Source of the DNA: a virus
Reading direction: 5' to 3' (one strand)
DNA length: 64,000 nt
Virus record (IMG/VR): IMGVR_UViG_3300007760_001418
Coordinates: 23,821-87,820 of that record
Both the position numbers and the translations under genes were made by a program. Below are positions 13,680 to 48,135 of this stretch, piece after piece (the stretch's first letter is position 1; the number at the start of each line of letters is the position of its first letter). The notes under the pieces are model-generated. The model worked only from the letters and a program-made list of their open reading frames with translations, was not told the DNA's origin and searched no databases.

Positions 13680-13874
13680 ATGAGTAACTCAGTATTAGAT
13701 AAGTGGAATGAAATCAAGGTACTTGTAGAAAGTATAGAGCTTGATGTTCATAAAAACGCCGGTGGCAATGCGTCTGCTGGTGTTCGAGCTCGGCGAGGCC
13801 TTCGTCTTTTAAAGACAGAAGTTGCCGGGCTAATTAAACAAACGATTCAGGTAGAAAAAGCAAAGAAGGGTTGA
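13680..13874 (+). CDS. Histone H1/Hc1-like small DNA-binding protein
   Basis: The 64-residue protein fits the short pattern of Hc1-type proteins (Chlamydia and many Bacteroidetes): an N-terminal amphipathic helix (LDKWNEIKVLVESIELDVHK), then a GN-A-G-RAR stretch (AGGNASAGVRARRG), then a second helix with Leu/Lys spacing ending in VEKAKKG. Such proteins bind and compact DNA. A phage copy could organise its genome or alter the host nucleoid. GAGGTAAAA lies just before the ATG. The tmRNA follows within 30 bp. The match is by eye on a short protein, so it is moderate. Confidence 0.55.
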   Translation: MSNSVLDKWNEIKVLVESIELDVHKNAGGNASAGVRARRGLRLLKTEVAGLIKQTIQVEKAKKG

Positions 13875-13901: not shown

Positions 13902-14266
13902 GGGGGCGAAACGGTCTCGACGGGGTGGCAAAGGGTGAAAGTGCAAGTAACCAACGGTAACACATGGTTTGATAGTGTTGCAAACTATAATTGCTAACGA
14001 TAACGTTGCATACGAATACGCACTAGCTGCGTAAACGCGGGGTTGCTGATAGACCTTGTTACCCAACATCAGATAAGCGGCTTGGCTCCGCCGAAATAAA
14101 CTAGGTCAAAAATGGTTACCCTATTTGTAATAGGTGGGTTCTGATGCTTAATAGGAATGGTGGTTTTTTGAGATACTTTGTCAGTTTAGAGAAACTGTCT
14201 AAACTTGTGAACGACTTAAATTTGGACCTATTTCGGACGCGGGTTCGACTCCCGCCGCCTCCACCA
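13902..14266 (+). ncRNA. ssrA: tmRNA (one-piece)
   Basis: The 5' end GGGGGCGAAACGGTCTCGAC is the classic tmRNA start. The 3' end has the T arm GCGGG-TTCGACT-CCCGC and the acceptor strand CGCCTCC, then A and an encoded CCA. GGGGGCG (13902-13908) pairs with CGCCTCC (14256-14262) with one G-U. The length of 365 nt is normal for a one-piece tmRNA. The RNA, charged with alanine, enters stalled ribosomes and adds a degradation tag. It lies between two phage genes on the same strand. CCA is encoded here, unlike in the tRNA-Asn of this window. Alphaproteobacteria and some cyanobacteria use two-piece forms, so this gene was not taken from those. Confidence 0.97.
13993..14034 (+). other. tmRNA tag-peptide reading frame
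   Basis: The frame GCT AAC GAT to TAA encodes ANDNVAYEYALAA, which with the tmRNA-borne alanine gives a 14-residue tag. The ANDN start and the YALAA end match bacterial ssrA tags; ALAA is the ClpXP/ClpAP recognition end. The middle VAYEY is longer than in Escherichia coli (ANDENYALAA). The preceding bases ATAATT sit where the resume signal is expected. Confidence 0.85.
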
Positions 14267-14438
14267 TTGGTTGGGTAATATGGGTAGCAGCATAAAGGGA
14301 ATGCTTCCTAAAATAAAAAGGGCAGCATCTTCCCACCATGAACCAAGAAAAGGAAATACAGGGCAAAAAAATATAGTTGAACCTACATATATAGAGGAAT
14401 CCGTTAATCCGGATCATGAAACGATAGAGGAAAAAATT

Positions 14439-15533
14439 ATGAGTACTATTGATAATAAAGATAATGAGCCTGCAGATGATACATACATCAACCCTGCAGA
14501 AGATAGTTGGGACTTTATCGGAGGAATGGACGATGATGTTGCAGCCGATGAGCGTCTTTTACCGGACAACAAAGCACCATCTGCATTAAATTGTGGGTTC
14601 ATAGGTGTTGGTGGAGGCGGAGGAAAGTTAGCTAAAGCTTTTCTTGATCTTGGGTTCACTAAAACTGTTGTTGTTAATACCACGGAGAAAGATCTTCCTG
14701 GTGGGATTGATAAGGAACATGTCGTTATTATCCCCGGAGCAGATGGCGTTGGTAAGGATGTAAGTCTTGGAAAAAAGCTGCTTAAAGAAAACAGTACGCT
14801 TGTCGAAGATGCATGCCGATCCAGGCTGGGATCTGTTGAGTGGCTATTTGTACTAGCCGGCGGAGGTGGTGGTACCGGATCTGCATGTGCTGCACTAAAT
14901 GATTCTCTATCCAGATACCTTAAGTCTGTAGAGTCAAAGGGCAGGGTTGTGTATATCATTACAAAACCTACAGCACAGGAATTACTTAATCCTACAATTG
15001 CAACAAATTATGCAGAAATATCAAAAGACTTAAAGGATACACCTCATATTGTAATTGATAATGAACGCCAATTACAATTGTTACGAGGCAAGGTTGGTAT
15101 GTTGAACATGTTCCCAGCTGCAAACTCAACATTTGCAAAACTCTTCCACCAGGTACTACGCCTCGCAAGTGAAAGTTCTTCTATCTCAGCATTTGATTCG
15201 AATGATTTAGAGAGATGTTTGAGTACAGCTGGAAGGATATTCCTTGGCAGTACTGTTATAAGGGACACAGGAGGACGAGATTTAGGCGCACAGGTCCTTC
15301 AAGGTTGTGTTAAGGGGTCACCATGTGCTGGACCAAAAGGGTCTCCAGAGACCGGTGTGTTACTATTGTTGGTAACGTCTCTCATGGCATCGGATCCGGA
15401 TATCAGTAAGCGTCTAGAGTCAGCAACGGCATATGTCGGAGGGCGTGCAAATACGCTTTTTTCGGGTGTGTACGTTAAAGATTCAATTCCTGGACTCATT
15501 GCACTTACCATGTTCGGTGGTATGAAAGACTAA
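14439..15533 (+). CDS. FtsZ/tubulin-like GTPase
   Basis: The protein has the tubulin/FtsZ GTP-binding layout. GFIGVGGGGGKLAKAF (from about residue 56) is the first loop, VVVNTTEKDL the second strand, and AGGGGGTGSACAALN (about 139-153) the tubulin signature GGGTGSG in slightly altered form. NPTIATNYAEI follows where FtsZ and TubZ have the NxD/N base-contact region. It probably forms filaments in the infected cell, as PhuZ and TubZ do, to place or move phage DNA. I chose ATG 14439 (364 residues) because AGAGGA lies seven bases upstream; the frame is open back to 14280 just after the tmRNA, which would add about 53 basic residues. The acidic N-terminal tail before the core is unusual. It converges with a minus-strand gene and overlaps it by four bases. 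Confidence 0.85.
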   Translation: MSTIDNKDNEPADDTYINPAEDSWDFIGGMDDDVAADERLLPDNKAPSALNCGFIGVGGGGGKLAKAFLDLGFTKTVVVNTTEKDLPGGIDKEHVVIIPGADGVGKDVSLGKKLLKENSTLVEDACRSRLGSVEWLFVLAGGGGGTGSACAALNDSLSRYLKSVESKGRVVYIITKPTAQELLNPTIATNYAEISKDLKDTPHIVIDNERQLQLLRGKVGMLNMFPAANSTFAKLFHQVLRLASESSSISAFDSNDLERCLSTAGRIFLGSTVIRDTGGRDLGAQVLQGCVKGSPCAGPKGSPETGVLLLLVTSLMASDPDISKRLESATAYVGGRANTLFSGVYVKDSIPGLIALTMFGGMKD

Positions 15534-32088: not shown

Positions 32089-34017
32089 GTGCTGAAGAGT
32101 CCATTCGACCCACCCGTATCTAATAATATCAGCATCCCAGATGATGCCGAAGTAGTTTTTGTTTCAGATTTCTTTGTTGAGGATCTAGTCGGAGGTGCTG
32201 AACTAACCTCAGAAGCTTTGATTGAAGCTAGTCCTTTTAAGGTTTTCAAATTACATAGTAAAGATGTATCCCTTCAGGTCCTGGAACAGGGCATTGGTCT
32301 CCATTGGGTATTCGGAAACTATTCTGGAGTTAATCCTGAGATGATCCCTTCTATTGTAGGCAACATGGAATATTCAGTGCTGGAGTACGATTACAAGTAT
32401 TGTAAATACCGGTCACCAGAGAAACACAAGAGCATTGAGATGAAAGAATGCGACTGCCATGAAGGTATCCAAGGCAAAATGATATCGGCCTTCATGTATG
32501 GTGCAAAGAGCCTCTGGTGGATGTCAGAAAGACAACAGCAAAACTATTTTGATAAGTTTCCTTTTCTTTCAGAACGTCCTAACGTAGTACTCAGCTCAGT
32601 CTTTAATGATGACTTTTTTGCTATGCTCAAAGTTATGAAGGAACAAAATCAAGACGTTGAGCGCAGCGGCTGGCTAGTCTTAGGTAGCACATCCTGGATA
32701 AAGGGAACAGACGCAGCAGTACGGTACTGTGAGGATAACAATCTAGATCATAAGGTATTATTGCAGCTGCCATATGCGGAGGTGCTTGATGAAATGTCAA
32801 GGGCAGAAGGATTTGTATATCTTCCTCAGGGCGGAGACACCTGTCCCCGTATGGTTATTGAAGCTAAACTGTTAGGTTGTAAGCTACATATCAATGATAA
32901 TGTTGAACATGCAAATGAGTTGTGGTTTGATACTGATGATACCTTTGACACCATGGCATATCTTTATGCTGCAAGGAAAAGATTCTGGGATGGTATCACT
33001 CATGCAATGGAGTTTGTCCCAACTCTAAGCGGCTATACAACAACATTAGATTGTAATAAGAACGGGTACCCATGGAAGGCTTCTATTAAATCTATGCTTG
33101 GATTCTGTAATGAGGTTGTTGTCGTCGACGGCGGCTCTACAGACGGTACATGGAAAGAATTGCAGGCATGGGCCCACGAAGAAGACAGACTAAACGTATA
33201 TCAAGTTGAAAGGGATTGGGGCCATCCGAGGTTTGCTGTTTTTGATGGTCAACAAAAAGCAGAGGCAAGATCCAGATGCACTGGTGAGTTCTGTTGGCAA
33301 CAGGATGCAGATGAAGTAGTCCATGAGAATGACTATGAAAAAATCCCTCGCCTTCTTAAGACGTTTCCAGTTGATGCAGATGTCGTCTCTTTACCTGTCG
33401 TTGAATACTGGGGCAGTGCTAAGAAAGCACGGGTTGATGTAAATCCATGGAAGTGGCGAATATCAAGAAATGCCCCGCATATTACCCATGGTATTCCAGC
33501 ACCATTTCGTATGACTGATGACGATGGTAACCTATATGCTTCTCCAGGTACAGACGGTTGTGATTACATCCATAATGAGACATACCAAGTGCTTCCTCAT
33601 GCTAGCTTTTATACATCAGACGTACATAATGTTAGGCTACATGCCGCGGCCGGCTCTCCTGGTGCACTAGAGCATTATACTGAGTGGTATAAGCGGGTTG
33701 TTGAAATGCTTCCTGGTGTATATCATTATTCCTGGTTTGATCTAGAGAGAAAGATTAAGACATATAGGGATTACTGGTCACAGCATTGGCAGAGTTTATA
33801 CAACATTGAACAAGAAGATACGGCTGAGAATAATATGTTCTTTGAACGTCCCTGGTCAGAGGTTACTGACAATGATATTACTGAACTAGCAACAAAATTA
33901 GAAGATAAAATGGGGGGCTGGGTATTTCATGTTCCGATTAATTTTGACAATCCGACTCCACACATTACATTAGAAACGTCACAACCGGCGGTTATGGTGG
34001 AAGATGACTCAGAATGA
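32089..34017 (+). CDS. Two-domain glycosyltransferase (GT4-like plus GT2)
   Basis: The N-terminal half looks like a GT-B enzyme: VVFVSDFFVEDLVGGAELTSEAL is the typical first loop, WLVLGSTSWIKGTDAA and FVYLPQGGDTCPRMVIEAKLLGC (about 248-270) match the donor-binding glycogen synthase-like region. The C-terminal half is GT2 (GT-A): VVVVDGGSTDGTWKEL, then WQQDADEVV as the DxD metal site. Such fusions add two sugars in turn. The start is GTG 32089 with AGGAG upstream. It opens the sugar island and overlaps the next GT2 gene by 14 bp. At 642 residues it is full length for both domains. The acceptor is unknown. Confidence 0.8.
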   Translation: MLKSPFDPPVSNNISIPDDAEVVFVSDFFVEDLVGGAELTSEALIEASPFKVFKLHSKDVSLQVLEQGIGLHWVFGNYSGVNPEMIPSIVGNMEYSVLEYDYKYCKYRSPEKHKSIEMKECDCHEGIQGKMISAFMYGAKSLWWMSERQQQNYFDKFPFLSERPNVVLSSVFNDDFFAMLKVMKEQNQDVERSGWLVLGSTSWIKGTDAAVRYCEDNNLDHKVLLQLPYAEVLDEMSRAEGFVYLPQGGDTCPRMVIEAKLLGCKLHINDNVEHANELWFDTDDTFDTMAYLYAARKRFWDGITHAMEFVPTLSGYTTTLDCNKNGYPWKASIKSMLGFCNEVVVVDGGSTDGTWKELQAWAHEEDRLNVYQVERDWGHPRFAVFDGQQKAEARSRCTGEFCWQQDADEVVHENDYEKIPRLLKTFPVDADVVSLPVVEYWGSAKKARVDVNPWKWRISRNAPHITHGIPAPFRMTDDDGNLYASPGTDGCDYIHNETYQVLPHASFYTSDVHNVRLHAAAGSPGALEHYTEWYKRVVEMLPGVYHYSWFDLERKIKTYRDYWSQHWQSLYNIEQEDTAENNMFFERPWSEVTDNDITELATKLEDKMGGWVFHVPINFDNPTPHITLETSQPAVMVEDDSE

Positions 34018-34753
34018 GAATGAAGTAAATCCTAATGATATAGTAATAGGTGTTGTAGTACCCTGTTACAATCATGGAGAGTATCTAAAAGAAAGTGTTG
34101 AGTCGATTTTTAATCAGACCCACCAGAATATTCGCGTTATTATTGTTAATGATGGCTCAACCGATAATACGGCAGAAGTTGCCCGAGAGCTTGTAGCCTC
34201 TGATGATAGGGCAGGTTATATAGAACTAGCCGAAAATCGTGGGAAGTGGTGTGCTATGAATCAGGCAATCGCGCGCATGGACTGTGTGTTTGTAACGACA
34301 CAGGATGCGGATGATGTTTCTACACCAGATCGCCTCGAGCGCCAACTACAATGCCTGCTGCAGACAAATACATCACATAATCTATGTGGATTTTATAATT
34401 GTGAAAATGAAGATGACATCAATGTCCATCGCCTCAAGCGTAAAGAGGGTGAACTTCCGATTATGCCACTTGATGAAGTGCTTAAGCATGTATTAACAGG
34501 GATGCATTCACCAGGCATTAATCATTATTACACAGGCGAATTCGAAACTGCCGGTGCCAGCGCAATGTTTCATAAAAATATATGGAACTTTGGTACCAGG
34601 TTCAACCCACCAGGTATTGGCCTAAGGGTACTGAATAGCGAAGACTCTGACTTCAATTTTCGTGTGACCTTTAACACAACAAGAACATCAGTCCTTCTAG
34701 AGAAGCTTTACTGCTATAGAAGAAATACTTCCACGAATAACGAGGAGATATAA
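34004..34753 (+). CDS. Family 2 glycosyltransferase
   Basis: This is a classic GT2 protein: VVPCYNHGEYLKESVESIFNQTHQNI, VIIVNDGSTDNT and ELAENRGKWCAMNQAI carry the nucleotide-sugar site, and VTTQDADDVSTPDRLERQL holds the DxD metal motif. No membrane segment follows, so it acts in the cytoplasm. It has 249 residues. Translation begins inside the upstream gene, which implies coupling. Donor and acceptor cannot be told from sequence. Confidence 0.88.
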   Translation: MTQNENEVNPNDIVIGVVVPCYNHGEYLKESVESIFNQTHQNIRVIIVNDGSTDNTAEVARELVASDDRAGYIELAENRGKWCAMNQAIARMDCVFVTTQDADDVSTPDRLERQLQCLLQTNTSHNLCGFYNCENEDDINVHRLKRKEGELPIMPLDEVLKHVLTGMHSPGINHYYTGEFETAGASAMFHKNIWNFGTRFNPPGIGLRVLNSEDSDFNFRVTFNTTRTSVLLEKLYCYRRNTSTNNEEI

Positions 34754-34754
34754 T

Positions 34755-35552
34755 ATGAGACTAAAGACAGGGGAGCCGAAGCTATTAGTAAAGTTTCCAA
34801 CTCGAGGCAGGCCTCAAAAGTTCTTTTACGTATTGACATTGTATTATCAGTACCTCAAGGGTAAGCACTTTGAGTTTGTAATATCATGTGACGAAGATGA
34901 TGAGACGATGAATAATGAAACCGTCCGCAATCATTTCAAGCAATTTCCTAATCTTACAGCTTATTATTCTAAGAATGCTAATAAGGTAGAAGCGATCAAC
35001 GCCAATATGGAAGGTAAGGATTTTGATATCCTACTACTGGCCAGTGATGATATGATTCCTGAAATTCCTGGATATGATGCTATTATTAAAAATACAATGA
35101 TGACAACATATCCGGATTATGATGGAGTATTGTGGTTTTTTGATGGATTTCGAAAAGATCTAAACACACTTTGTATCCTTGGTAAAAAGTACTATGATAG
35201 ATTCGGGTACATTTACAATCCCCAGTATAAGACATGGTTCTGTGATAATGAGTTTACCATAGTTGCAGATATGCTAAAGAAGCAGACCCCAGTGAATCAA
35301 GTGATTATACGTCACTGTCATCCAGATATTGTTGGTTATGGCCACGACGGTACATACCAAAGAAATAATGATGATGATGAAAAGCAGGCCGATCAGCAGA
35401 TACTATTAGCTAGAAAAGAAATCGATTTTGATGTACCACAATTGCTATTAGCAGACAGGGAACGTCAACAGGCCCAGCCCAAGCCGGTACCTCCGAAGAA
35501 TAAGTCTAAAAAGTCGACTCGAAAAAATAGAAAGAAGAGAAAGAAGAGATAG
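34755..35552 (+). CDS. GT-A-like glycosyltransferase with a very basic tail
   Basis: The N-terminal LLVKFPTRGRPQKFFYVLTLYY and FVISCDEDDETMN resemble the start of GT-A enzymes, with LLLASDDMIPEIPGYD as a likely metal site. The match to GT2 is weaker than for its neighbours. The last 20 residues are almost all Lys and Arg (KSKKSTRKNRKKRKKR), which could bind nucleic acid or membrane phosphate. GAGGAG precedes the ATG. It begins one base after the upstream stop. Confidence 0.65.
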   Translation: MRLKTGEPKLLVKFPTRGRPQKFFYVLTLYYQYLKGKHFEFVISCDEDDETMNNETVRNHFKQFPNLTAYYSKNANKVEAINANMEGKDFDILLLASDDMIPEIPGYDAIIKNTMMTTYPDYDGVLWFFDGFRKDLNTLCILGKKYYDRFGYIYNPQYKTWFCDNEFTIVADMLKKQTPVNQVIIRHCHPDIVGYGHDGTYQRNNDDDEKQADQQILLARKEIDFDVPQLLLADRERQQAQPKPVPPKNKSKKSTRKNRKKRKKR

Positions 35553-35558
35553 AAATAC

Positions 35559-36392
35559 ATGATTCTAAACGTCGACTATCCTATCGGTGCTAGCTGTAAG
35601 GTTCCAACAGAGGATACAATTTGTGGAAATTTAATTGAAGAAAACTCAATTCCCGAGGATTATACCCTTGTAAATTGTAATTGGACAAAATGTATTAATG
35701 GGTGGGGGCTACAAAGAACGCAGCAAAAACTAAATGATACGAAGGTACAACTAGTTGCCGCCGGTCGTGATGTCCAAAAGTCAATCTTTATATGCCAACA
35801 CATATCAGCTGATAAATTGGTATGGCCATCAGGATTAGTTTTTTCACCACATGCCACAAAAGGAAATCATCATATTGCTATTCCTCATATTGCATGTAGC
35901 TATCCAACATTTAGAAGTGAGAGAAAGCTCACGGCCAGCTTTATGGGAAGCTTTGAAACACATTGGACTCGGCCTTTATTGGAAAACCATAAATCTTCGA
36001 ATGTGACTATAATCAATAGTGGCGTATGGTACCATTATAATCCGGACGAATTTCGAAAGAGCACGTACGAAAACTTGCTGGCCATTAGTAAGTTTACATT
36101 TTGTCCACGTGGAACAGGTCCAAGCACAATAAGAATATGGGAAGCACTTGCAGCCGGCAGTATACCAGTAATATTCTCAGATTCTTTAGCTTTACCCAAT
36201 ATTGATTATGACTGGAATGATGTGGTAATTTTTATTCCTGAGCAAAATATAATGAACGCAATGAACATATTGAGCAGATATTCAGACAATGATATTGTTA
36301 CGATGTCTAATGCTGGGATGAAAGTATTTCAGGAATATTGTAGCCAAGAGAATATTCACAAGTTTATTATTAATGAGATTCAAGCATGTTAA
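35559..36392 (+). CDS. Exostosin-like glycosyltransferase (GT47)
   Basis: The C-terminal half shows the exostosin signature: YENLLAISKFTFCPRGTGPS, TIRIWEALAAGSIPVIFSD, then DWNDVVIFIPE. These match the GlcA/galactose-type GT47 domain, which is common in plants, animals and algae and scattered in bacteria. The N-terminal part (ASFMGSFETHWTRPLL) also fits. At 277 residues it is short. There is no membrane anchor. It ends seven bases inside the next gene. Confidence 0.75.
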   Translation: MILNVDYPIGASCKVPTEDTICGNLIEENSIPEDYTLVNCNWTKCINGWGLQRTQQKLNDTKVQLVAAGRDVQKSIFICQHISADKLVWPSGLVFSPHATKGNHHIAIPHIACSYPTFRSERKLTASFMGSFETHWTRPLLENHKSSNVTIINSGVWYHYNPDEFRKSTYENLLAISKFTFCPRGTGPSTIRIWEALAAGSIPVIFSDSLALPNIDYDWNDVVIFIPEQNIMNAMNILSRYSDNDIVTMSNAGMKVFQEYCSQENIHKFIINEIQAC

Positions 36393-37150
36393 TTGTCACA
36401 ATCTTTAATTACCCAGACAACGAAAATTATAATACTATGTGTAAGTGCTGGATACAACAGACCGCTCTTCATTGTGGTGGTTCAAGAATACTCATTTTAA
36501 CAGAACAAGATTCTTTACCACCAGATGTTAGTGAGTTTGCTAGTAGATATCCATCAGTAACAATAGAGAAGAAAGAACGTTCAGGCCACATTGACCTATC
36601 TACTGCAGGTCAAAAAGCCAATCATAACGTTTTATTTAAGCTTTACAATCTATGCAGTATAACAGAGCCATTTATCTTTGTCGACGCTGATGCATTTTTT
36701 CTGTCTAGTTACGAGAACTTACTAACGGCTTCATATGATAAGCCATTTATAGCTGTAAATCATCAAAAGATTCCGGATCATACTTCTCATTTACCATATG
36801 ATTTTTTCAACTCCGGAATGATGATAGTTTCAGATCCAGCCATTTTGGACTGGCATGCATTAGTAATGAGGCTAATGCAAGATTCAAGATTTGTATATCC
36901 TGGGACTGATCAATCTATGTTAAATTCGTACTTTAAGAATATGAACTATGACTATACACACCCGTTAGTCGGTCATGGATGGAATAGTTGTGCAAAATAT
37001 ACCGTCTATAATCCTGATCAAACTGCACGCTGTATTGGTCTTGGTGAGGAGTATGATGTACACCTCAATCATTTTTGGTGGGAGTTTAAGCCATGGAAGC
37101 TTGGCTGCCCAATATTCAATAAGGTAAAAAACAACAATGAAGAAAGATAA
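36386..37150 (+). CDS. GT-A (GT8-like) glycosyltransferase
   Basis: FIFVDADAFFLSSYENLL holds a clear DxD metal motif, NSGMMIVSDPAIL and PGTDQSMLNSYF follow in the order seen in GT8-type enzymes, where they bind the donor and acceptor. The N-terminal segment (MLIVTIFNYPDNENY) is a normal first strand. The family assignment is from motif order only. It has 254 residues and overlaps the GT47 gene by seven bases. Confidence 0.65.
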   Translation: MLIVTIFNYPDNENYNTMCKCWIQQTALHCGGSRILILTEQDSLPPDVSEFASRYPSVTIEKKERSGHIDLSTAGQKANHNVLFKLYNLCSITEPFIFVDADAFFLSSYENLLTASYDKPFIAVNHQKIPDHTSHLPYDFFNSGMMIVSDPAILDWHALVMRLMQDSRFVYPGTDQSMLNSYFKNMNYDYTHPLVGHGWNSCAKYTVYNPDQTARCIGLGEEYDVHLNHFWWEFKPWKLGCPIFNKVKNNNEER

Positions 37151-37205
37151 TGAAAAAAGTACCAAAATTCGTAGATCATTAAGGAAATAACTAAGGGAAC
37201 TAATA

Positions 37206-37967
37206 GTGAATGAGCTTATAAAAGATGAGATAACTGTTATTTTAACTGTCTGGAAGCGTCCACATCTTCAGAAACAACTAAATCATGTTTTAAGTCAAAC
37301 AAAAAAGCCGAGTCAAGTTTGGATATATCAAAATGAGTCGCACTTCAATATTGACATTCCTGAAGAGGCAAAGGAGAAACATAATATTTCAGTTATTCAA
37401 TCAAAGGATATAAATTTTAAGTTTCACGGGAGATTTGTTTTGCCTCTCTTATGTGATACAGAATATATCGCGATTTTTGATGATGATACAATACCTGGTC
37501 CACTGTGGTTAGAAAACTGCCTTGACACTTCGAAGAGAAATAACTGTATTGTCGGCGCCAACGGCAGAACCATACGAAGTATTACTAATACATCAAATTC
37601 TGCATGCATCGGCACCGGTGATGGTGCCCCTGTGGAGAAAGAGACGGAGGTAGATTTTGTTGGGCATTGTTGGTTTTTTAAGACTGAGTGGTGTAAAAAC
37701 TTATGGAAAGACCGGCCGGCGAGTTGGGATAATGGAGAAGATATTCACCTTGCTGCAGCTTGTCAAATCTATGAGGGAATAAAGTGCTTTGTACCGAGGA
37801 TGCCACGAGGCAATATACAGCTATGGGGAGACACCGAGGTCCATCTTGGGTCGGATAATGTTGCAACATGGAAGACTAGCAATCATAGTGATTTGAGAGA
37901 TAACGTTATAAAATATTGGATCGATAGAGGGTGGAATCCCTTGGCAGCAAGAGGAACCGATGATTAG
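37206..37967 (+). CDS. Family 2-like glycosyltransferase
   Basis: ITVILTVWKRPHLQKQLNHVLSQ is a GT2/GT64-type start, and EYIAIFDDDTIPGPLWLENCL carries the DDD metal site. WDNGEDIHLAAACQI is in the place of the catalytic-base region (the ED of ED-x-x-L). The start is GTG 37206, with AAGGGAAC upstream. The 55 bp before it holds no supported gene. It overlaps the next gene by eight bases. Confidence 0.75.
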   Translation: MNELIKDEITVILTVWKRPHLQKQLNHVLSQTKKPSQVWIYQNESHFNIDIPEEAKEKHNISVIQSKDINFKFHGRFVLPLLCDTEYIAIFDDDTIPGPLWLENCLDTSKRNNCIVGANGRTIRSITNTSNSACIGTGDGAPVEKETEVDFVGHCWFFKTEWCKNLWKDRPASWDNGEDIHLAAACQIYEGIKCFVPRMPRGNIQLWGDTEVHLGSDNVATWKTSNHSDLRDNVIKYWIDRGWNPLAARGTDD

Positions 37968-38643
37968 TAATACACGCATTCTCGGCCACAGGGGAGATTT
38001 AGAAAACTACAGCTCAAACACAAAAGAAAGTGTGCTATCGGCATTTGCTCTGAGCGATGGTGTTGAGATAGACATTAATATTTCAAAAGATAATATTTTC
38101 TTCTTTTATCATGAAGAAGACTGGCCTACTGGTGGCAAAATTCTAGCAAGGAATATGGATATTTCTGAAATTAGAGATATCTGCCCCAACGGCGAAACGG
38201 TACTCACCCTTCAAGAGGCCCTATCTTTAGCACATGAACACCAAAAAATATTGTGTATTCATATGGAACTCGGCGGCGGCGGCCGCCGGTGGACCAGCCC
38301 GCTCACTGGAGATGAGATTAAACAGCTGCTTAAAATAATTGACGAAAGCAGGATCTCTAAAGAACTAATCATGCTTCATACCACATCCCCTCGACTTGCA
38401 AGATCATATTATAATGAAGGATATACAGTCTTTTTACGGGGTTCTTGTATTGAGAGAAGGGGTATGTATCGATTTAATGAGTACAGAAATATAGTAAAAA
38501 ATAAAGTTGATCTTAGCAAAAGCATGGCCTACACATTAAATAGTCGGCATGAAATTGGTGCTACTATAAGCAAGGGATTTGGGTATATACTGACAGATAA
38601 CTTATCACTAACAAAACCTGGTCTATGGGGAACTAATAAATGA
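37960..38643 (+). CDS. GDPD-like phosphodiesterase
   Basis: ILGHRGDLENYSSNTKESVLSAFALSDGVEIDI follows the glycerophosphodiester phosphodiesterase pattern HRG...N(T)...AF...G...EiDi, and FFFYHEEDW supplies the next His. These residues bind calcium and act in catalysis. IHMELGGGG and YILTDN fit later strands of the TIM barrel. The enzyme would cleave glycerol-phosphate esters; within a glycan island it may trim or act on glycerol-phosphate decorations. At 227 residues it is a compact single domain. It overlaps the next gene by four bases. Confidence 0.8.
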   Translation: MISNTRILGHRGDLENYSSNTKESVLSAFALSDGVEIDINISKDNIFFFYHEEDWPTGGKILARNMDISEIRDICPNGETVLTLQEALSLAHEHQKILCIHMELGGGGRRWTSPLTGDEIKQLLKIIDESRISKELIMLHTTSPRLARSYYNEGYTVFLRGSCIERRGMYRFNEYRNIVKNKVDLSKSMAYTLNSRHEIGATISKGFGYILTDNLSLTKPGLWGTNK

Positions 38644-39602
38644 AAACCACAGATGATAGAACATATTACTCTAGGACTGGCAACAAAAAAAAGAAATTTG
38701 TTAGGGATTTTGTTTCGAAATATCCTGAAGCTAAAAAAATATTTGATGTTGGCTGTAACAATGGAGACATGTCTTATCCACTTCAGAAAGAATTGAATAA
38801 AGACGTCTATGGTATAGATTTATCCAAAGAACTCAAAACCCCACATGATTATCAGATGGATATAGTTGATATCATGAAGTGGGACTTACTATACCCGAAT
38901 GACATTACTCTTTTCTTTAGTCTTTATCACCACCTTTTAGCAAAACATGGTATCGACGAGGTTGATGATCTATTTTATAAACTTCTTCTTCATACAAAAC
39001 ATTTGTTATTTGATGTAGGAAATTTAAGTGAAAAGCTTAGGCAGTCTCAGTACTGGTACCCTATACAGAAAAAATACTTCAAAAATGAAAAAGATCTATT
39101 TGATCATTTTGGAATTGATTATAATGTATTGGGTAAGTGGGACACCGGGGGAGGCACAAGGACTGTAGTTTCTTTTTCATCCTCTAGTTTTGACGGCGCT
39201 ATAGAGGTAGTAGAAGAATACAGGAGACTAATTGGCAGTTCCAATTCGGCGAAGGGACTTTTAGAGAAGAACTCTAAAGATCCAGAAATTTATACCGGTG
39301 CCGAGTATAAGAAACTAAAGCTAGGTAACAAACTGTTTTTTTCTAAAAAACATAAAGATGAAGACCGCCAGAAAAGAGAACTGAAGAATATAGAGAAAAT
39401 TTATAATTCATCTGACAGTAGTCTCAAAAATAAGCTTATCCGATATTACGGCCACTCAACAACCTACGGATTCATTTATGAATGGATTGATGATTTTATT
39501 TATAGTGGAAAAACTAGCATTAAGGTACCTGGCCTGACCTTGACGGATGTCGACATTATTAAGGTTGGCAAAAATAAAAAATATATAGACTTTGAACGAT
39601 AA
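38640..39602 (+). CDS. SAM-dependent methyltransferase with an extra C-terminal domain
   Basis: FDVGCNNGDMSYPLQKEL is motif I of class I methyltransferases, VYGIDLSKEL is motif II, and DITLFFSLYHHLL the region around motif IV. It ends with HLLFDVGNLSEKL. About 150 further residues (from KGLLEKN) contain many Lys and Tyr residues and IYEWIDDFIYSGK, which faintly recalls a kinase-like lobe, but no motif is complete. It may methylate a sugar or lipid. The start overlaps the GDPD gene in ATGA. Confidence 0.7.
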   Translation: MKTTDDRTYYSRTGNKKKKFVRDFVSKYPEAKKIFDVGCNNGDMSYPLQKELNKDVYGIDLSKELKTPHDYQMDIVDIMKWDLLYPNDITLFFSLYHHLLAKHGIDEVDDLFYKLLLHTKHLLFDVGNLSEKLRQSQYWYPIQKKYFKNEKDLFDHFGIDYNVLGKWDTGGGTRTVVSFSSSSFDGAIEVVEEYRRLIGSSNSAKGLLEKNSKDPEIYTGAEYKKLKLGNKLFFSKKHKDEDRQKRELKNIEKIYNSSDSSLKNKLIRYYGHSTTYGFIYEWIDDFIYSGKTSIKVPGLTLTDVDIIKVGKNKKYIDFER

Positions 39603-39603
39603 A

Positions 39604-40593
39604 ATGCTACTTATTTGTTACGGCACTCGCCCAGAATACTTAAAAATAAAGCCACTTCTAAAAAAGATGGAAGGTCAATTGGAGTTTCGTACGCTGTTCA
39701 CAGGGCAACACACTGATCTAATAGAAGGCAATACAGCCCCAGACTATGTTGTCTCTATATGCTCTGGAAAAAATCGTCTAAATTCAATAATTGCTTCTAC
39801 CATAGACTGTATGGATTTTGAAAAAGAGGGAATAACATCCGTCCTTGTGCAAGGGGACACAACATCCGCAATGTCACTAGCCATTAGCGCATTTAATCAA
39901 CAAATACCGGTAATACATCTTGAAGCAGGTTTACGAACATATAATCTTCACCAACCATACCCAGAAGAGGCAAATCGTCAAATCATAGGGAGAATAGCAT
40001 CTTTAAGCTTATGCCCGACGACGCTATCAGCACAAAGGCTTAATGATGAAAAATCATATGGTGTTACTGAGGTTGTAGGCAATACTGTTTTGGACAACCT
40101 AACTGGTCTTAGCACTACCACTAAAAATAATGTCCTCGTAACCCTGCACCGCCGCGAAAATCATACTATGATAGCGGAGTGGTTTAGGGAAATAGAAAAA
40201 GTATCCTTACAACATGATTGTGAATTTATACTTCCCATACATCCAAACCCAAACGTTATTTGTCACAAGGGTATTTTAAGTAACGTAAAGGTTGTAGATC
40301 CAATGCCATATCAAGAGCTTTTACAACACCTGGCCGATTGTTCATTTGTTATAACAGATAGTGGGGGAATACAAGAAGAAGCAGCATTTTTGAGAAAACC
40401 ATGCATTGTATGCCGCAAAAAAACTGAGAGATCAGAGGGACTAAATAATTTTTCGATATTATGTGAAGAGCCAAAGCTATTATCAGAGAGAATAGCTCAA
40501 TCAAAAGGCCTGAAAATGAAAGGGGATTGCCCATATGGCGATGGCAAATCTTCTGGTAGGATTGTAAGAATTATTAAGGATTTTATGAAATGA
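39604..40593 (+). CDS. wecB: UDP-N-acetylglucosamine 2-epimerase
   Basis: The protein follows the WecB/MnaA family through its length: ICYGTRPEYLKIKPL, LFTGQHTDLI, VLVQGDTTSAMSLA, VIHLEAGLRT, PEEANRQIIGRIASL, VTLHRRENH, LPIHPNPNV, and ITDSGGIQEEAAFLRKP with the key histidines and acids. It converts UDP-GlcNAc to UDP-ManNAc. At 329 residues it is slightly shorter than the usual 370. ATG 39604 comes right after the upstream stop; a TTG at 39592 is the alternative. No strong ribosome site is visible, so it probably depends on coupling. A nucleotide-sugar dehydrogenase at 44460 could oxidise the product. Confidence 0.88.
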   Translation: MLLICYGTRPEYLKIKPLLKKMEGQLEFRTLFTGQHTDLIEGNTAPDYVVSICSGKNRLNSIIASTIDCMDFEKEGITSVLVQGDTTSAMSLAISAFNQQIPVIHLEAGLRTYNLHQPYPEEANRQIIGRIASLSLCPTTLSAQRLNDEKSYGVTEVVGNTVLDNLTGLSTTTKNNVLVTLHRRENHTMIAEWFREIEKVSLQHDCEFILPIHPNPNVICHKGILSNVKVVDPMPYQELLQHLADCSFVITDSGGIQEEAAFLRKPCIVCRKKTERSEGLNNFSILCEEPKLLSERIAQSKGLKMKGDCPYGDGKSSGRIVRIIKDFMK

Positions 40594-41525
40594 AGGTATT
40601 AGTAACAGGTGCATCAGGAATGGTTGGCCATTCTTTTCGGGAGAATATCAAGCTTCCATATAGCTATGAATTTGTATTTGTCGGTGGTGGAGATTGTGAC
40701 CTAACAAATCGAGCTGCAACATTTAAGCTATTCAAAGAGACCCAACCAGATTACGTTATCCACCTTGCCGCAAAGGTAGGTGGTGTGAAGGGTAATACAG
40801 ATTATGTCGCCGACTTCTACACCCAGAATATTCAGATGAATACAAATGTTTTGGATGCAGCGTATGTTTTCAAGGCCAAGAAAGTTGTTTCTCTTTTAAG
40901 TACATGCGTTTATCCGGATTCTGCGACATATCCACTAACGGAAGATCAGATCCATAAAGGCCCACCACACAGATCAAATTTTGGATATGCATATGCCAAG
41001 AGAATGCTGGATATCCAGTCTCAGGCATATCGCCAACAGCATGGTTGCAATTTCATAACCGCAGTGCCAAACAATTTATTCGGCGAGAATGACAGCTTCC
41101 ATCTGACAGACGGCCATGTTATCCCAGCGTTAATCCGAAAAGTGTATGAGGCAAAAATCAATAATGAGCCGACAGTAACATTTTGGGGCGATGGAAGCCC
41201 ACTCCGCGAATTCACACATTCAGATGATATTGCCAGGCTGTTGCTCTTTCTTTTGGAGAGATATAACAGCGCAGCACCCGTTAACATCGGAAACACCGGT
41301 GAGGTTAGCATTAAAGAGGTTGCTGAAAATATTATAGAGAATATAGGATATGAGGGTACAGTGGTATGGGATACCTCAATGCCAGCTGGCCAGCATAGAA
41401 AACCATCCTCAAATAATAAACTAATGGAAATGAGGTGGTATCCATATTCTGACTTTAAGACGTCACTAGCTAGTACGTGCAATTGGTTTATACAAAACTA
41501 TCCTAATGTTCGTGGAATCAGTTGA
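40590..41525 (+). CDS. fcl: GDP-L-fucose synthase
   Basis: This is a bifunctional 3,5-epimerase/4-reductase that turns GDP-4-keto-6-deoxymannose into GDP-L-fucose. VTGASGMVGHSF is the NADP-binding loop, HLAAKVGGVKGNTDYVADFY and LSTCVYPDSATYPLTED match GMER/WcaG, and YAYAKRMLDIQ has the catalytic Tyr-Lys. PNNLFGENDSFH and WGDGSPLREFTHSDDIA complete the family set. At 311 residues it is full length. It overlaps wecB in ATGA. Its partner, GDP-mannose 4,6-dehydratase, is two genes downstream. Confidence 0.93.
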   Translation: MKVLVTGASGMVGHSFRENIKLPYSYEFVFVGGGDCDLTNRAATFKLFKETQPDYVIHLAAKVGGVKGNTDYVADFYTQNIQMNTNVLDAAYVFKAKKVVSLLSTCVYPDSATYPLTEDQIHKGPPHRSNFGYAYAKRMLDIQSQAYRQQHGCNFITAVPNNLFGENDSFHLTDGHVIPALIRKVYEAKINNEPTVTFWGDGSPLREFTHSDDIARLLLFLLERYNSAAPVNIGNTGEVSIKEVAENIIENIGYEGTVVWDTSMPAGQHRKPSSNNKLMEMRWYPYSDFKTSLASTCNWFIQNYPNVRGIS

Positions 41526-41550
41526 ACAGTCGAGAATAGTTAGTTATAAT
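41522..41550 (+). promoter_or_regulatory. Sigma70-type promoter before the epimerase gene
   Basis: TTGAAC at 41522-41527 and TATAAT at 41545-41550 are 17 bp apart. As at 2567, the -35 box holds the TGA stop of the upstream gene. GAAGGAG follows 8 bp later as a ribosome site. Confidence 0.75.
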
Positions 41551-41572
41551 AATTGTGAAGGAGTTTCAAAAC

Positions 41573-42565
41573 ATGAAAACAGTATTGATTACAGGGGTCG
41601 CCGGTCTACTTGGCGCAAATTTTTCTAAGTACTTGCTAAGTGAGGGATACAATGTTGTAGGCATTGACAACCTATCCGGCGGATTCAAGAGTTCTATCGA
41701 TGAACGGGTTGATTTTTATGAAGTTGATCTCAATGATCATACTGATGTAGATCGTGTCTTTCGAAAGACGAACCCAGACTACGTCTATCACTTTGCCGCA
41801 TATGCCGCTGAGGGATTAAGCCCATATATCAGGCGCTACAACTATATGAACAATGTTGTTTGTTCTGCAAATGTAGTTAATGCATGTGTCAATTTTGGTG
41901 TGGAGAAGATTATCTTTACCTCATCGATGGCAGTGTATGGTGAAGGCAATCCACCCTTTACAGAGGACCAACCACAAACTCCTGAAGACCCTTACGGCAT
42001 CGCAAAGTATGCTGTTGAGATGGACCTTAAGCTAGCTAAGGAGCATTTCGGCCTAGACTATTCGATCGTCCGCCCACATAATGTTGTAGGAACGTTCCAG
42101 AATATCTGGGATCGGTACCGCAATGTTATTGGTATCTGGATTCGCCAGTCAATGAGGGGTGAGCCACTTACAATCTTTGGTGATGGAACACAGATTAGAG
42201 CATTCTCTGATATCAAGTTCTACATGGAACCCTTTGAAAGATTGATGCTTGAATATCCTGGTGAGACGTTCAACATTGGTGCCGATAAGGACTGGACCAT
42301 CAATGAAGCAGCCAACCTTGTTGCCAAGGTGGCCCGTGAGTTTGGTTATGAGCCAGGTATTACTCATCTCGAAAAGAGAAATGAAGTACACACAGCATAC
42401 TCAGACCACACCAAGGCTAAAGAACTTTTAGGGTTTCAGGATGATACGAATCTTGAAGATACTATCAGAGAAATGTTTGCTTGGGCGGAATCCCAACCGG
42501 CTCATGAAGTAGCATACTTTGATTATGAGATTGAAAAGAACCTGTACAGTTTCTGGAAGAAATAA
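41573..42565 (+). CDS. NAD-dependent nucleotide-sugar epimerase/dehydratase
   Basis: This extended short-chain dehydrogenase has [19 protein letters not shown] at its start, the NAD-binding GxxGxx[15 protein letters not shown] resembles UDP-glucose 4-epimerases. [17 protein letters not shown] and YGIAKYAVE hold the catalytic Ser/Tyr/Lys set, and [17 protein letters not shown] and [13 protein letters not shown] follow. It probably interconverts a UDP- or other NDP-sugar at C4, but the sugar cannot be told. ATG 41573 was chosen because GAAGGAG lies about nine bases upstream (330 residues). It overlaps gmd by one base. Confidence 0.85.
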
Positions 42566-43548
42566 TGAAGACTGCCCTGGTCACAGGAATAACTGGGCAG
42601 GATGGATCATATCTAGCAGAACTTCTTCTCAGTAAAGGCTATAAGGTTGTAGGCGTCAAGCGCCGCACATCTTTAATTACCACTGATCGAATTGATCATA
42701 TTTATGAGCATCCAAATTTTAAGATGGTCTATGGTAATATGCATGATGCAACATCTCTGTATCGCATTGTAGAAGAACATAAGCCAGATGAAGTATACAA
42801 TATAGCAGCACAGTCTCATGTGAGGGTTTCGTTTGAAGTTCCAGAAGAAACTACAGACTCAGTTGCCCTGGGTACTCTTCGTCTCTTAGAGGCATGTAGG
42901 CTATTAGCTCCTAATGCGAGATACTATCAGGCATCCTCTTCTGAGATGTATGGGGATAATCCTAATGTGCCACAAAATGAGGACACCAGGATGACACCAG
43001 CATCTCCTTATGCATGTGCAAAGCTGTTCGGACATAACCTTGTCCGCAACTACCGCATCGGGTACGGAATGCACGCATCATCTGGAATTCTATTCAACCA
43101 TGAGAGCCCCCGCCGTGGCGAAACGTTTGTAACAAGGAAAATAACCTTGGCAGCAGCCAGAATAAAGTTGGGCCTTCAAGATAAGCTTTACCTCGGCAAT
43201 CTCGACGCAAAGCGAGACTGGGGATTTGCTGGTGACTACGTAAATGCAATGTGGCTGATGCTCCAACAAGATAAACCAGGAGATTATGTTATTGCAACTG
43301 GGGAAACCCATACTGTTAAAGAATTTCTTCAGGTAGTCTTTGACCATGCCGGCTTGGATGTGGAAAAACATACAGGCTTTGATGAGAGGTTCATGCGCCC
43401 ACACGAGGTACCGGTTTTACTTGGTGATCCAACCCTAGCTAAAAAGACACTAGGGTGGGAGCCAACAGTTAAGTTCAGCGAGCTGGCAAAAATGATGTAT
43501 GAAGCAGATCTAATTGAGGTCCAAAAAGAGAAAAGATCTCTCGGCTGA
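42565..43548 (+). CDS. gmd: GDP-mannose 4,6-dehydratase
   Basis: The protein converts GDP-mannose to GDP-4-keto-6-deoxymannose, the first step to GDP-fucose. [100 protein letters not shown] and [17 protein letters not shown] are all hallmark blocks of Gmd. The catalytic Glu and Tyr-Lys are present. At 327 residues it is typical. Fcl (40590) uses its product. The mannose-1-phosphate guanylyltransferase step was not found in this window. Confidence 0.95.
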
Positions 43549-43562
43549 ACATTTCCTCTATC

Positions 43563-43593
43563 TTGTGTAAAATAGTTCATAGTATGGTATAAT
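43563..43593 (+). promoter_or_regulatory. Candidate promoter before the nuclease gene
   Basis: A perfect TATAAT at 43588-43593 has TTGTGT (43563-43568) 19 bp upstream, longer than ideal. The ten-mer AGTATGGTAT at 43581-43590 recurs at 45356-45365 in the next gene gap. The gap 43549-43609 contains no gene. Confidence 0.4.
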
Positions 43594-43609
43594 AAATCAT
43601 AGGTGATGA

Positions 43610-44458
43610 ATGACTGATTTTCCAACAGGTAAAGGCCACGTTTCTTATTCAGAAGTAAAAAACTGGAAAGAATGTGCCTTTAGACATAAGCTTCAACAGA
43701 TCGACAAAATCGATATGTTTTCCCCTTCACCGTTCCTTGATTATGGAACGATCGTTCACGAGGGTTGTGAACACTTTCTTAAGACCCGTGAGATCGATCT
43801 TGAACCAATCGAAAAAGCACTTCGGCTAGCTTGGAAGAAGAAGGGGTTCGATGAGCCTGACAGTCCCTGGCGCGCCAATCCTCCAGGGTGGTATAAGTAT
43901 GAGCCCATTGATACATGGGTTAAGTGGGCAAAGACGTGCCTAACAGATCTTCCAGCTTTCATGGAAGAAACGTTCCCAGGGTGGACATACATTACTGCTG
44001 AGGAACAGCTTTATGAACTTATTCCCAAGGACACTTTAAAGTTTAAGGGATTTATCGATGGTATCATTAAGACAAAAACAAAGTCAGGAAAAAGTAAAGC
44101 ATTCATCCTTGATTGGAAGACAGCTGGTGAACGTGGGTGGCATTACCAAAAACGAAAAGATTGGTTAATCCATGCACAGTTGGCCTTGTATAAAAACTTT
44201 TGGTCTAGAAAGCATAGTATAAGTCCTGAGGACATCAAGAACATACAATGTGGGTTTATCCTCCTAAAAAGAGGGGGGCCGCCAGGGGATTCATGTGAGC
44301 TCTTAAAAGTATCTGTGGGCCCTAGTACGGCAATGCGCGCAGACAAGATGGTCACAGATATGATAAAATCAGTAAGGAAGGGACTCTTTCTTAAAAATAG
44401 AAACTCATGCAAGTATTGTGACTATAAAGACACTGTACATTGCCCAAGTGGAGGATAA
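43610..44458 (+). CDS. PD-(D/E)XK nuclease with Fe-S cysteines (Cas4/RecB-like)
   Basis: HVSYSEVKNWKECAFRHKL at the N-terminus, DYGTIVHEGCEHFL, then KGFIDGIIKTKT and FILDWKTAG give the acid and D-x-K residues of the RecB nuclease fold. One Cys near the start (KECAF) and three at the end (CKYCDYKDTVHC) form the arrangement that holds an Fe-S cluster in AddB- and Cas4-type exonucleases. It probably trims DNA ends in phage recombination or replication, although its place within a sugar island is odd. It has 282 residues. AGGTGATGA lies before the ATG. No CRISPR array or other cas gene is present. Confidence 0.8.
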   Translation: MTDFPTGKGHVSYSEVKNWKECAFRHKLQQIDKIDMFSPSPFLDYGTIVHEGCEHFLKTREIDLEPIEKALRLAWKKKGFDEPDSPWRANPPGWYKYEPIDTWVKWAKTCLTDLPAFMEETFPGWTYITAEEQLYELIPKDTLKFKGFIDGIIKTKTKSGKSKAFILDWKTAGERGWHYQKRKDWLIHAQLALYKNFWSRKHSISPEDIKNIQCGFILLKRGGPPGDSCELLKVSVGPSTAMRADKMVTDMIKSVRKGLFLKNRNSCKYCDYKDTVHCPSGG

Positions 44459-44459
44459 C

Positions 44460-45317
44460 ATGAATAATTTTGGAATTGTGGGACAAGGATTTGTTGGCGG
44501 CGCTCTTAGGGAGGGAATGCAACATGCATTTTCTATCGAGACATATGACATAGACCCAAATAAGGGTTCGACAGTTGGTAGCATTAACGAACTGGTCAAT
44601 AAGGTTGATAAGATTATCTTTGTTTGTTTACCAACACCAATGGACTCAGAGGGTAGGTGTAGCACAAAAATTGTTGAGGATGCAATCACAGAAATTAATG
44701 ATGTTGCTACCCATCTTCGAAAGAAGATAATTGTTGTTATTAAGTCGACCATCGAGCCAGGTACAACAGAAAGACTAAATAAGCGATATTCAGGTGTAAC
44801 TGTAGCATTTCAACCAGAGTTTCTCACAGAGGCTAATGCAGTAGATGATTTTAAGAATCAGTCACGCATTATTATTGGTGCTCCACGTCCCGCATCTGGA
44901 ACTATTAAGACACTATTTCGAAAAGCATTTCCCAAGACACCGATTGTTAAAACTAGCTCTACCATTGCAGAGACAGTAAAATATTTTACAAACTGCTTTT
45001 TGGCCACAAAGGTCAGCTTTGCAAATGAAATGAAACAAGTTTGTGATGGTATTGGGATTGATTATGATAAGGTAGTAGAATATGCGTTATATGATGATAG
45101 AATTGGCAACTCACACCTTTCAGTGCCAGGCCCTGATGGAAACCTTGGTTTTGGCGGCCATTGTTTTCCTAAGGATCTAAATGCAATTAGATACCTTGCA
45201 CGCTTGGTCGGTGTGGAACCAACTATATTGAGTGCCGTTTGGGATAAAAACTTAGAAGTTCGAACTGAGAATGATAGAGACTGGCTGAAGATGAAGGGCC
45301 GAGCAATCATCGACTGA
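44460..45317 (+). CDS. Short nucleotide-sugar dehydrogenase (UGD/WecC-like)
   Basis: NNFGIVGQGFVGGALREGM is the NAD-binding start of the family, FVCLPTPMDSEGRCST and VVIKSTIEPGTTERL the next blocks, and PEFLTEANAVDDF the mid-domain signature. GFGGHCFPKDLNAI holds the catalytic Cys at residue 235. It would oxidise C6 of a UDP-sugar to the acid. At 285 residues it ends soon after the active site, so the C-terminal sugar-binding domain present in 390-440-residue enzymes is missing. The partner could be UDP-glucose or UDP-ManNAc from wecB; sequence does not decide. GGAGG lies six bases before ATG 44460. Confidence 0.8.
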   Translation: MNNFGIVGQGFVGGALREGMQHAFSIETYDIDPNKGSTVGSINELVNKVDKIIFVCLPTPMDSEGRCSTKIVEDAITEINDVATHLRKKIIVVIKSTIEPGTTERLNKRYSGVTVAFQPEFLTEANAVDDFKNQSRIIIGAPRPASGTIKTLFRKAFPKTPIVKTSSTIAETVKYFTNCFLATKVSFANEMKQVCDGIGIDYDKVVEYALYDDRIGNSHLSVPGPDGNLGFGGHCFPKDLNAIRYLARLVGVEPTILSAVWDKNLEVRTENDRDWLKMKGRAIID

Positions 45318-45343
45318 TCGAGCAGATTAGAATTAACTCTTTC

Positions 45344-45393
45344 GGGCAAATGTGTAGTATGGTATTAGTACTGTGCACACTTTGCCCTTTTTT
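45344..45393 (+). terminator. Rho-independent terminator after the dehydrogenase gene
   Basis: GGGCAAA (45344-45350) pairs perfectly with TTTGCCC (45381-45387), the stem grows by TGTG/CACA with one bulged C, and six T residues follow at 45388-45393. The loop contains AGTATGGTAT, shared with the promoter region at 43581. It is the best intrinsic terminator in the window. Confidence 0.75.
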
Positions 45394-45407
45394 GTGAGCT
45401 GCAATTT

Positions 45408-46658
45408 ATGACGAAGAAAAAGAAAAAGATTTTAATGTTGTCGGACCATGCCTTAAGCCCGTCTGGTGTCGGAAACCAGAGCAGGTTTCTAATTGAGGGT
45501 TTGATACAAAAAGGTGAATGGTCAGTTCGCCAATTTGGTGCTGCAATGAAGCACTTAGATTATGGCGTGAAACATGTCAATGATGACTTTATTATTAAGC
45601 CAATCGACGGTTTTGGAAACCCAGAATTAATTAGGTTAACACTAGCCAGCGAAAAACCAGATGTGTTGATTATATTCACAGATCCAAGATTTTTTATCTG
45701 GTTATGGGAGATGGAAGACGAAATTCACCAGGTATGCCCAATAGCATATTGGCATGTTTGGGATAACCGCCCTACACCCAGATTCAATAAGGTATTATAT
45801 GAATCAACGGATGCTATTAATTGTCATTCGCATTTGACCTACGAGATGGTGAGTGAACTAGTTCCCGACAGGACGAAGTTTATCCCACACTCCCTTCCCC
45901 CAGATATGTTTTTTCCATTACCAAAAGACTCTATTAAGAAGTGGAGAGCACAAGTGTTAGGCGAAGATAGAGTAGATCATTTTGTTGCATTTTGGGTAAA
46001 TAGAAATGCAAAACGTAAAAGGGGAAGTGATCTATTAGTATCATGGAAATTATTTGTTGATGAACTAGAGCAAAAGCATGGTCACCGCAATGCAACGTTG
46101 CTACTACATACTGACCCATCTGATAAAGAGGGCCCGAATTTATTTGAAGTAGCAGATAAGCTTGATATTAAAGATGAGATTGTATTTTCGACAGATAGGA
46201 TTGAGTTTCAACAAATGAATATCTTGCATAATATTGCTGATGTACATGTCAATATTGCATATGCAGAAGGCTTTGGCTTGGCAACATTGGAAGCAATGCA
46301 AAGTGGAACACCCATTATCGCTCTAAAAACTGGTGGCCTAACGAGACAGGTTGTTGATCATAGAGATGAGTCAGAGAACGGCATAGCACTTCCGGTAGAG
46401 TTTAGATCTCTTGTAGGCTCTCAACAGGTTCCATTTATATATGAGGACTATGTCTCTAGTGAGACCGTTGCAGCAGCATTTACAGAAATGTATGAAATGG
46501 GACATGAAAAACGGAGTGAGTTAGGCAAGAAGGCCAGAGATTACGTTCTTTCAGAGTTTGCACACCAAGATACAATTGATGCTTGGCATGATTCTCTAAA
46601 TGACTTAATTGATAACTGGAAAGACAGATACCAGCGATGGGAGTGTAACACACTATGA
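45408..46658 (+). CDS. GT-B glycosyltransferase (GT4-like)
   Basis: The start ILMLSDHALSPSGVGNQSRFLIEGL is a typical GT4 acceptor-domain loop. PTPRFNKVLYESTDAINCHS and FVAFWVNRNAKRKRGSDLL lead into the donor domain, where ADVHVNIAYAEGFGLATLEAMQSGTPIIAL holds the conserved EGFGL..E donor-binding residues. It has 416 residues and no membrane segment. It follows the terminator and only a weak ribosome site, so it probably has its own promoter in the gap. It overlaps the next GT gene by four bases. Confidence 0.85.
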   Translation: MTKKKKKILMLSDHALSPSGVGNQSRFLIEGLIQKGEWSVRQFGAAMKHLDYGVKHVNDDFIIKPIDGFGNPELIRLTLASEKPDVLIIFTDPRFFIWLWEMEDEIHQVCPIAYWHVWDNRPTPRFNKVLYESTDAINCHSHLTYEMVSELVPDRTKFIPHSLPPDMFFPLPKDSIKKWRAQVLGEDRVDHFVAFWVNRNAKRKRGSDLLVSWKLFVDELEQKHGHRNATLLLHTDPSDKEGPNLFEVADKLDIKDEIVFSTDRIEFQQMNILHNIADVHVNIAYAEGFGLATLEAMQSGTPIIALKTGGLTRQVVDHRDESENGIALPVEFRSLVGSQQVPFIYEDYVSSETVAAAFTEMYEMGHEKRSELGKKARDYVLSEFAHQDTIDAWHDSLNDLIDNWKDRYQRWECNTL

Positions 46659-47827: not shown

Positions 47828-48135
47828 TAAGCAATACAGCATTATTAATGATATTAGGTGCAGTATTAGTGTTGGTCGGTGTACCAACCTATTTTGCGCT
47901 TAAATTCGCCTTAGCTATTTTACGTACTCAAGAGGCATTAGAAGATTCTTTAGACACACTTGATGAAACATATACAAACATATCTACAATTTTGGATAGG
48001 CCATTATTCTATGATAGCCCAGAGATTCGAGGTGTTTTAGATGATGTACGTAATGCCCGTTCTTCTATTTTAGCTGTTGCTAGTGCACTAACAAAGATTG
48101 ATAGCCCCGAAGAGCTCAAGGATGAAGATACTTAA
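47821..48135 (+). CDS. Small membrane-anchored hypothetical protein
   Basis: The 104-residue protein starts at TTG 47821 with a GGGGGGA stretch about seven bases upstream. One N-terminal helix (LLMILGAVLVLVGVPTYFAL, about residues 8-27) should anchor it in the membrane. The remainder is charged and helical (EALEDSLDTLDETYTNIST) and may form a coiled coil. I do not recognise the family. It lies between the sugar island and the late sigma gene. Confidence 0.65.
   Translation: MLVSNTALLMILGAVLVLVGVPTYFALKFALAILRTQEALEDSLDTLDETYTNISTILDRPLFYDSPEIRGVLDDVRNARSSILAVASALTKIDSPEELKDEDT

Follow-up and report, generated by a model that had tools for sequence, protein, structure and literature searches.

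A tmRNA releases stalled ribosomes and labels their incomplete proteins for degradation. Phage tmRNAs have been reported for 402 of 18,146 genomes, given as 2.3% (PMC9004378), and older lists of them name mycobacteriophages Bxz1 and Wildcat and Bacillus phage G (PMC4131195). A decoy-type role has been suggested for the RNA of mycobacteriophage DS6A, which is TLD-only (PMC4131195, PMC11915505). The window analysed here, a stretch of 64,000 nucleotides, covers positions 23821-87820 of a virus record that is 87,820 bases long and contains one tmRNA; the record represents part (87.8 kb) of the genome of an uncultured tailed phage.

The tmRNA gene and its phage neighbourhood

The gene was called by ARAGORN, and Rfam model RF00023 matched at the same coordinates (Table 1) with 110.4 bits (gathering score 47 bits), E 2.9e-42 and model positions 1-374, which means full length, so the match is far beyond chance. 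All 7 acceptor-stem pairs of the window tmRNA form, among them the alanine-charging pair G3-U70; the T-stem has 5 of 5 pairs with T-loop TTCGACT, and the 3' end is an encoded CCA. Pseudoknots PK1, PK2 and PK3 can each be formed, and PK4 is represented by candidate stems only. The gene thus has what defines the standard form of RF00023: a tRNA-like domain with G3-U70 and a T arm, a tag frame with a resume codon and a protease-signal end, and PK1-PK3 with covariation. A permuted two-piece tmRNA (RF04321) was ruled out, because the window gene is one-piece and in standard order and the acceptor piece does not come first. The earlier note had described a complete one-piece tmRNA with encoded CCA and intact tag within phage genes, and this was borne out by ARAGORN, the RF00023 score and the pairing; it would have given the idea up over a failed covariance-model search or broken pseudoknots, but the model matched over its full length and PK1-PK3 were formable and covarying.

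Table 1 Features of the tmRNA gene and its direct neighbours (window positions)
Feature	Position	Strand	Evidence or remark
Histone H1-like (Hc1) protein, 64 aa, just 5' of tmRNA	13680..13874	+	Pfam PF07432 E 2e-7
tmRNA gene (ssrA), one-piece, 365 nt, CCA encoded	13902..14266	+	ARAGORN; RF00023 110.4 bits
Acceptor stem 5' arm GGGGGCG, partner CGCCTCC 14256-14262, third pair G-U	13902..13908	+	
Pseudoknot PK1: AACCA/TGGTT and GTAACAC/GTGTTGC	13949..13981	+	pairing, covariation in relatives
Tag frame ANDNVAYEYALAA with stop TAA; resume codon GCT	13993..14034 (gene positions 92-133)	+	ARAGORN; purifying selection
Pseudoknot PK2: GGGGT/ACCTT and CTGAT/ATCAG	14039..14072	+	pairing, covariation in relatives
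Pseudoknot PK3: GCGG/CCGC and TTGGC/GTCAA	14077..14109	+	pairing, covariation in relatives
T arm, acceptor 3' arm and CCA of tRNA-like domain	14236..14266	+	RF00023; pairing; relatives
FtsZ/tubulin-like protein, gene directly downstream of tmRNA	14271..15533	+	alternative true start 14280 or 14439 possible

The tmRNA is phage-encoded, as indicated by phage genes on both sides, the virus record and a neighbourhood shared in 28 loci. Phage genes of the record include helicase phrog_2488, PhoH and baseplate wedge subunits. The product of the downstream gene matched Pfam Tubulin with E 1e-6, which is below the family cut-off, and PDB FtsZ chains with E down to 1e-9; it is extended at the N terminus by about 100 residues, and a search of the phage collection found no cultured-phage relatives of it. 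It is followed by PIN-PhoH and, farther on, by baseplate wedge proteins. The 5' side also carries genes for DUF444 (6460), SpoVR (7617), PrkA (9009) and a GroEL-like protein. DUF444, SpoVR and PrkA are grouped here in one phage (6460-10937), and in bacteria they are a stress or sporulation-linked set; PrkA relatives among phage records, Thermus phages included, had about 33% identity at best. Between structural genes, an extended series of genes for products of about 100-640 aa occupies 32089-48135; two of them that were tested matched glycosyltransferases. Promoter and terminator scans around the tmRNA gave counts at chance level and nothing convincing, and similar tmRNA DNA was found in none of 50,697 phage records.

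Retention and selection in the phage lineage

A tubulin search of IMG/VR gave 57 related loci. In 28 of them, the tmRNA and the tubulin match share a strand and the tmRNA ends no more than 350 nt before the match; it lies about 1.5 kb upstream in one further locus, and 1-2 kb downstream on the opposite strand in five. The tubulin tree has two sides, each fully supported, with the tmRNA beside or just beyond tubulin on one and elsewhere in the genome on the other. Among tubulin-bearing contigs of at least 75 kb, a set that includes near-copies of one another, the tmRNA was present in 19 of 20, and the largest tubulin-bearing contigs (267-284 kb) are of jumbo-phage size. The sole exception among the 20 was the 201-kb relative G006 (L010), in which no tmRNA was found, so the gene is either dispensable or located outside that fragment. 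In these marine giant phages the tmRNA is therefore a standing feature of a whole uncultured lineage and not a sporadic one, and, as judged from sequence, it is vertically inherited with the neighbouring tubulin gene. The suggestion that phage tmRNAs are rare thus holds for phages overall, by the survey cited above (PMC9004378), but not for the long contigs of this lineage.

Without inserts, the relatives' tmRNAs are 250-434 nt long with a highly variable pseudoknot region. The longest (L042, 5459-5892) ends in CCACTC, which means that CCA is not encoded, and was missed by ARAGORN. Another (L013, 9000-9339, minus strand) has a non-canonical T loop, GGCAGTA, on an intact T stem; it also overlapped a permuted-tmRNA match, and we rejected it as a permutation intermediate because the alignment covers the shared 5' domain only.

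Nine named helices (acceptor, T-arm and PK1-PK3) had 95.0% of cells paired in 13 relatives; the figure was 82.8% for shuffles and 40-49% for slid controls, and on this measure the structure is favoured over its slid versions, as it was drawn from the window sequence. Double changes are better evidence for the same reason: 25 of 47 helix pairs changed on both sides in the 13 relatives, a level reached by 0 of 500 shuffles. In the acceptor stem, G3-U70 was invariant across these relatives and three other pairs covary. The tag frames comprised 25 distinct 13-codon versions encoding 15 peptides, with pairwise differences of 426/312/1404 at codon positions 1/2/3, pN/pS of 0.18, and Ala at tag positions 10, 12 and 13 in all 25. 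The tag frame is under purifying selection, which argues for tag translation and against a decoy. Together, the relatives' covariation and the selection on the tag support a function of the window tmRNA, as far as sequence comparison can indicate it.

Proposed role and the host

We hold it very probable that the window RNA is a functional phage-encoded one-piece tmRNA, which would carry out ribosome rescue with host partners and add its own tag. Expression, charging, SmpB use, tagging and benefit are what we infer for it. During infection, the tmRNA would be transcribed, its transcript matured by host enzymes, and alanine attached by the host alanyl-tRNA synthetase via G3-U70. Host EF-Tu, together with host SmpB, would then bring the RNA to ribosomes that have stalled on broken mRNAs. 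None of 33 phage contigs had SmpB in a search that was positive in 10 of 14 control genomes, so the phage tmRNA would have to use that of the host. The stalled product would gain (A)ANDNVAYEYALAA, the tag that the phage itself encodes, and the ALAA at the end of the tag would direct the product to host ClpXP. The most likely benefit would be extra ribosome-rescue capacity under phage control while host mRNA is being degraded.

The earlier note raised diversion of host proteolysis as well as ribosome reuse. The same tag could mainly serve to redirect proteolysis, with truncated host proteins passed to ClpXP for amino-acid recycling or clearing and not as a supplement to rescue. This was put forward for phage Melnitz (PMC9004378) and agrees with the ALAA end kept in the relatives' tags, but a tmRNA tags any stalled product and makes no choice of host proteins; the two outcomes are inseparable from sequence, and we regard this one as improbable. 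Still less credible is a decoy that does no real tagging and acts through its tRNA-like domain, by titrating SmpB or blocking the host tmRNA, for which the DS6A RNA is a precedent (PMC4131195, PMC11915505), since the tag frame is complete and selected and the pseudoknots covary. Integration into bacterial ssrA is known, and pieces of that gene occur in prophages (PMC9004378), but recent capture from a host, or a relic of an integration site, is the least plausible origin: the phage gene is complete and divergent, it follows the tubulin clade in its inheritance, it is in the same place in 28 loci, and its combination of tag and gene form was unseen in the bacterial matches examined.

Signals of the host conflict: the layout of the tag is alphaproteobacterial and the form of the gene is not. 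A GTDB scan for ANDNxxxx[YF]ALAA found at least 80 stretches; those listed were Alphaproteobacteria by title (a few by order or family name), with two titled only 'Proteobacteria', and all of the listed matches that ARAGORN could classify were permuted genes. When a sequence model of the phage 5' half was run against 299 Pseudomonadota genomes, one-piece genes scored best (about 41-43 bits), their tags including ANDDNYALAA and ANDDVELAYAA, and the best named alphaproteobacterium had 38.5 bits. A search of 398 Pseudomonadota genomes for the phage tubulin, run without positive control, gave no match. The idea that the tag may indicate the host group is thus met by an ambiguous outcome, favoured by the tag layout among the matches listed and opposed by the gene form.

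A nested protein gene in a sister group, and comparison with known tmRNAs

The sole tmRNA match in relative G018 is 529 nt long, as it is interrupted between PK2 and the 3' tRNA-like domain by a protein gene that has a ribosome-binding site of its own. When contigs were scanned by tag, 18 were recovered, of which 15 had the insert and the other three a mini-tmRNA of about 250 nt; a tag-independent scan with the small protein added five further contigs, which gave 20 with the nested gene, one of them with only the gene and the 3' piece, as the contig ends there. Records of the nested form are L198 1501-2029 (minus strand), L256-L263, L265, L312-L315, L320, L321, L328-L331 and L208-L225. The nested protein has about 63-69 aa and at least three sequence types with 57-75% DNA identity, compared with 78-100% for the tmRNA pieces in those contigs. 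Counted per site, most substitutions in its gene are synonymous. The protein had no PHROGs or Pfam family and no significant match in phage records. The same small protein gene is found downstream of an uninterrupted tmRNA, as a neighbour, in L297, L299, L309, L311 and L317.

The RNA halves can be paired across the insert. The acceptor arms are GGGGGTG/CACCTCC, and GGGGGCG/CGCCTCC in L262 (tag ANNDVALPLAA), a double change seen in this one contig only; the T stem alternates between GCGGG/CCCGC and TGCGG/CCGCA. CCA is not encoded in this group, and L314, L328 and L331 have an altered, non-canonical T loop on intact T stems. In two-piece tmRNAs, PK1 and PK2 are typically the only pseudoknots within the coding piece (PMC3985003), so the nested gene occupies the corresponding place of the break. 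Surveyed tmRNA forms are standard, permuted and intron (PMC11915505), with no nested or split form among them, and we found no report of a split or interrupted tmRNA gene form in the open-licence literature.

Halves that are intact, and in a few cases covarying, suggest a split, unpermuted tmRNA. The plain alternative is a dying tmRNA gene that tolerates an insert, against which stand the same intact and partly covarying flanks. We give an even chance to the reading that the lineage remodelled its tmRNA, so that the split gene of the sister group would give a functional tmRNA in two unpermuted pieces (or a protein-coding one), a form outside the three surveyed, whose small protein may act with trans-translation. 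If functional, the split form would be a second route to a two-piece tmRNA, one that needs no circular permutation, and would draw attention to a small protein connected with trans-translation. For the lineage as a whole, ribosome rescue would be a maintained function of widespread uncultured phages and not a chance acquisition, and the lineage offers natural sets of tags and architectures for testing.

Compared with one-piece tmRNAs of RF00023, the window gene shares the full model, G3-U70, PK1-PK3, the ALAA tag end, the T arm and CCA; it differs in being phage-borne with a 13-codon tag, and the pseudoknot region of its relatives varies widely. DS6A likewise has a tRNA-like domain on a phage, but the window lineage keeps the tag and pseudoknots. 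Marine phage Melnitz and SAR11 phages (PMC9004378) also represent aquatic-phage tmRNA, with a putative function in both cases, but theirs is two-piece and permuted, whereas the window gene is one-piece in standard order with at least three pseudoknots. Bxz1, Wildcat and phage G (PMC4131195) resemble it in having a complete tmRNA in a phage; here, the tmRNA belongs to an uncultured lineage without a cultured relative in the phage collection, is lineage-wide and is often tubulin-adjacent. A complete phage tmRNA as such is already established, and what is newer is the lineage-wide retention, the linkage to tubulin and the nested form.
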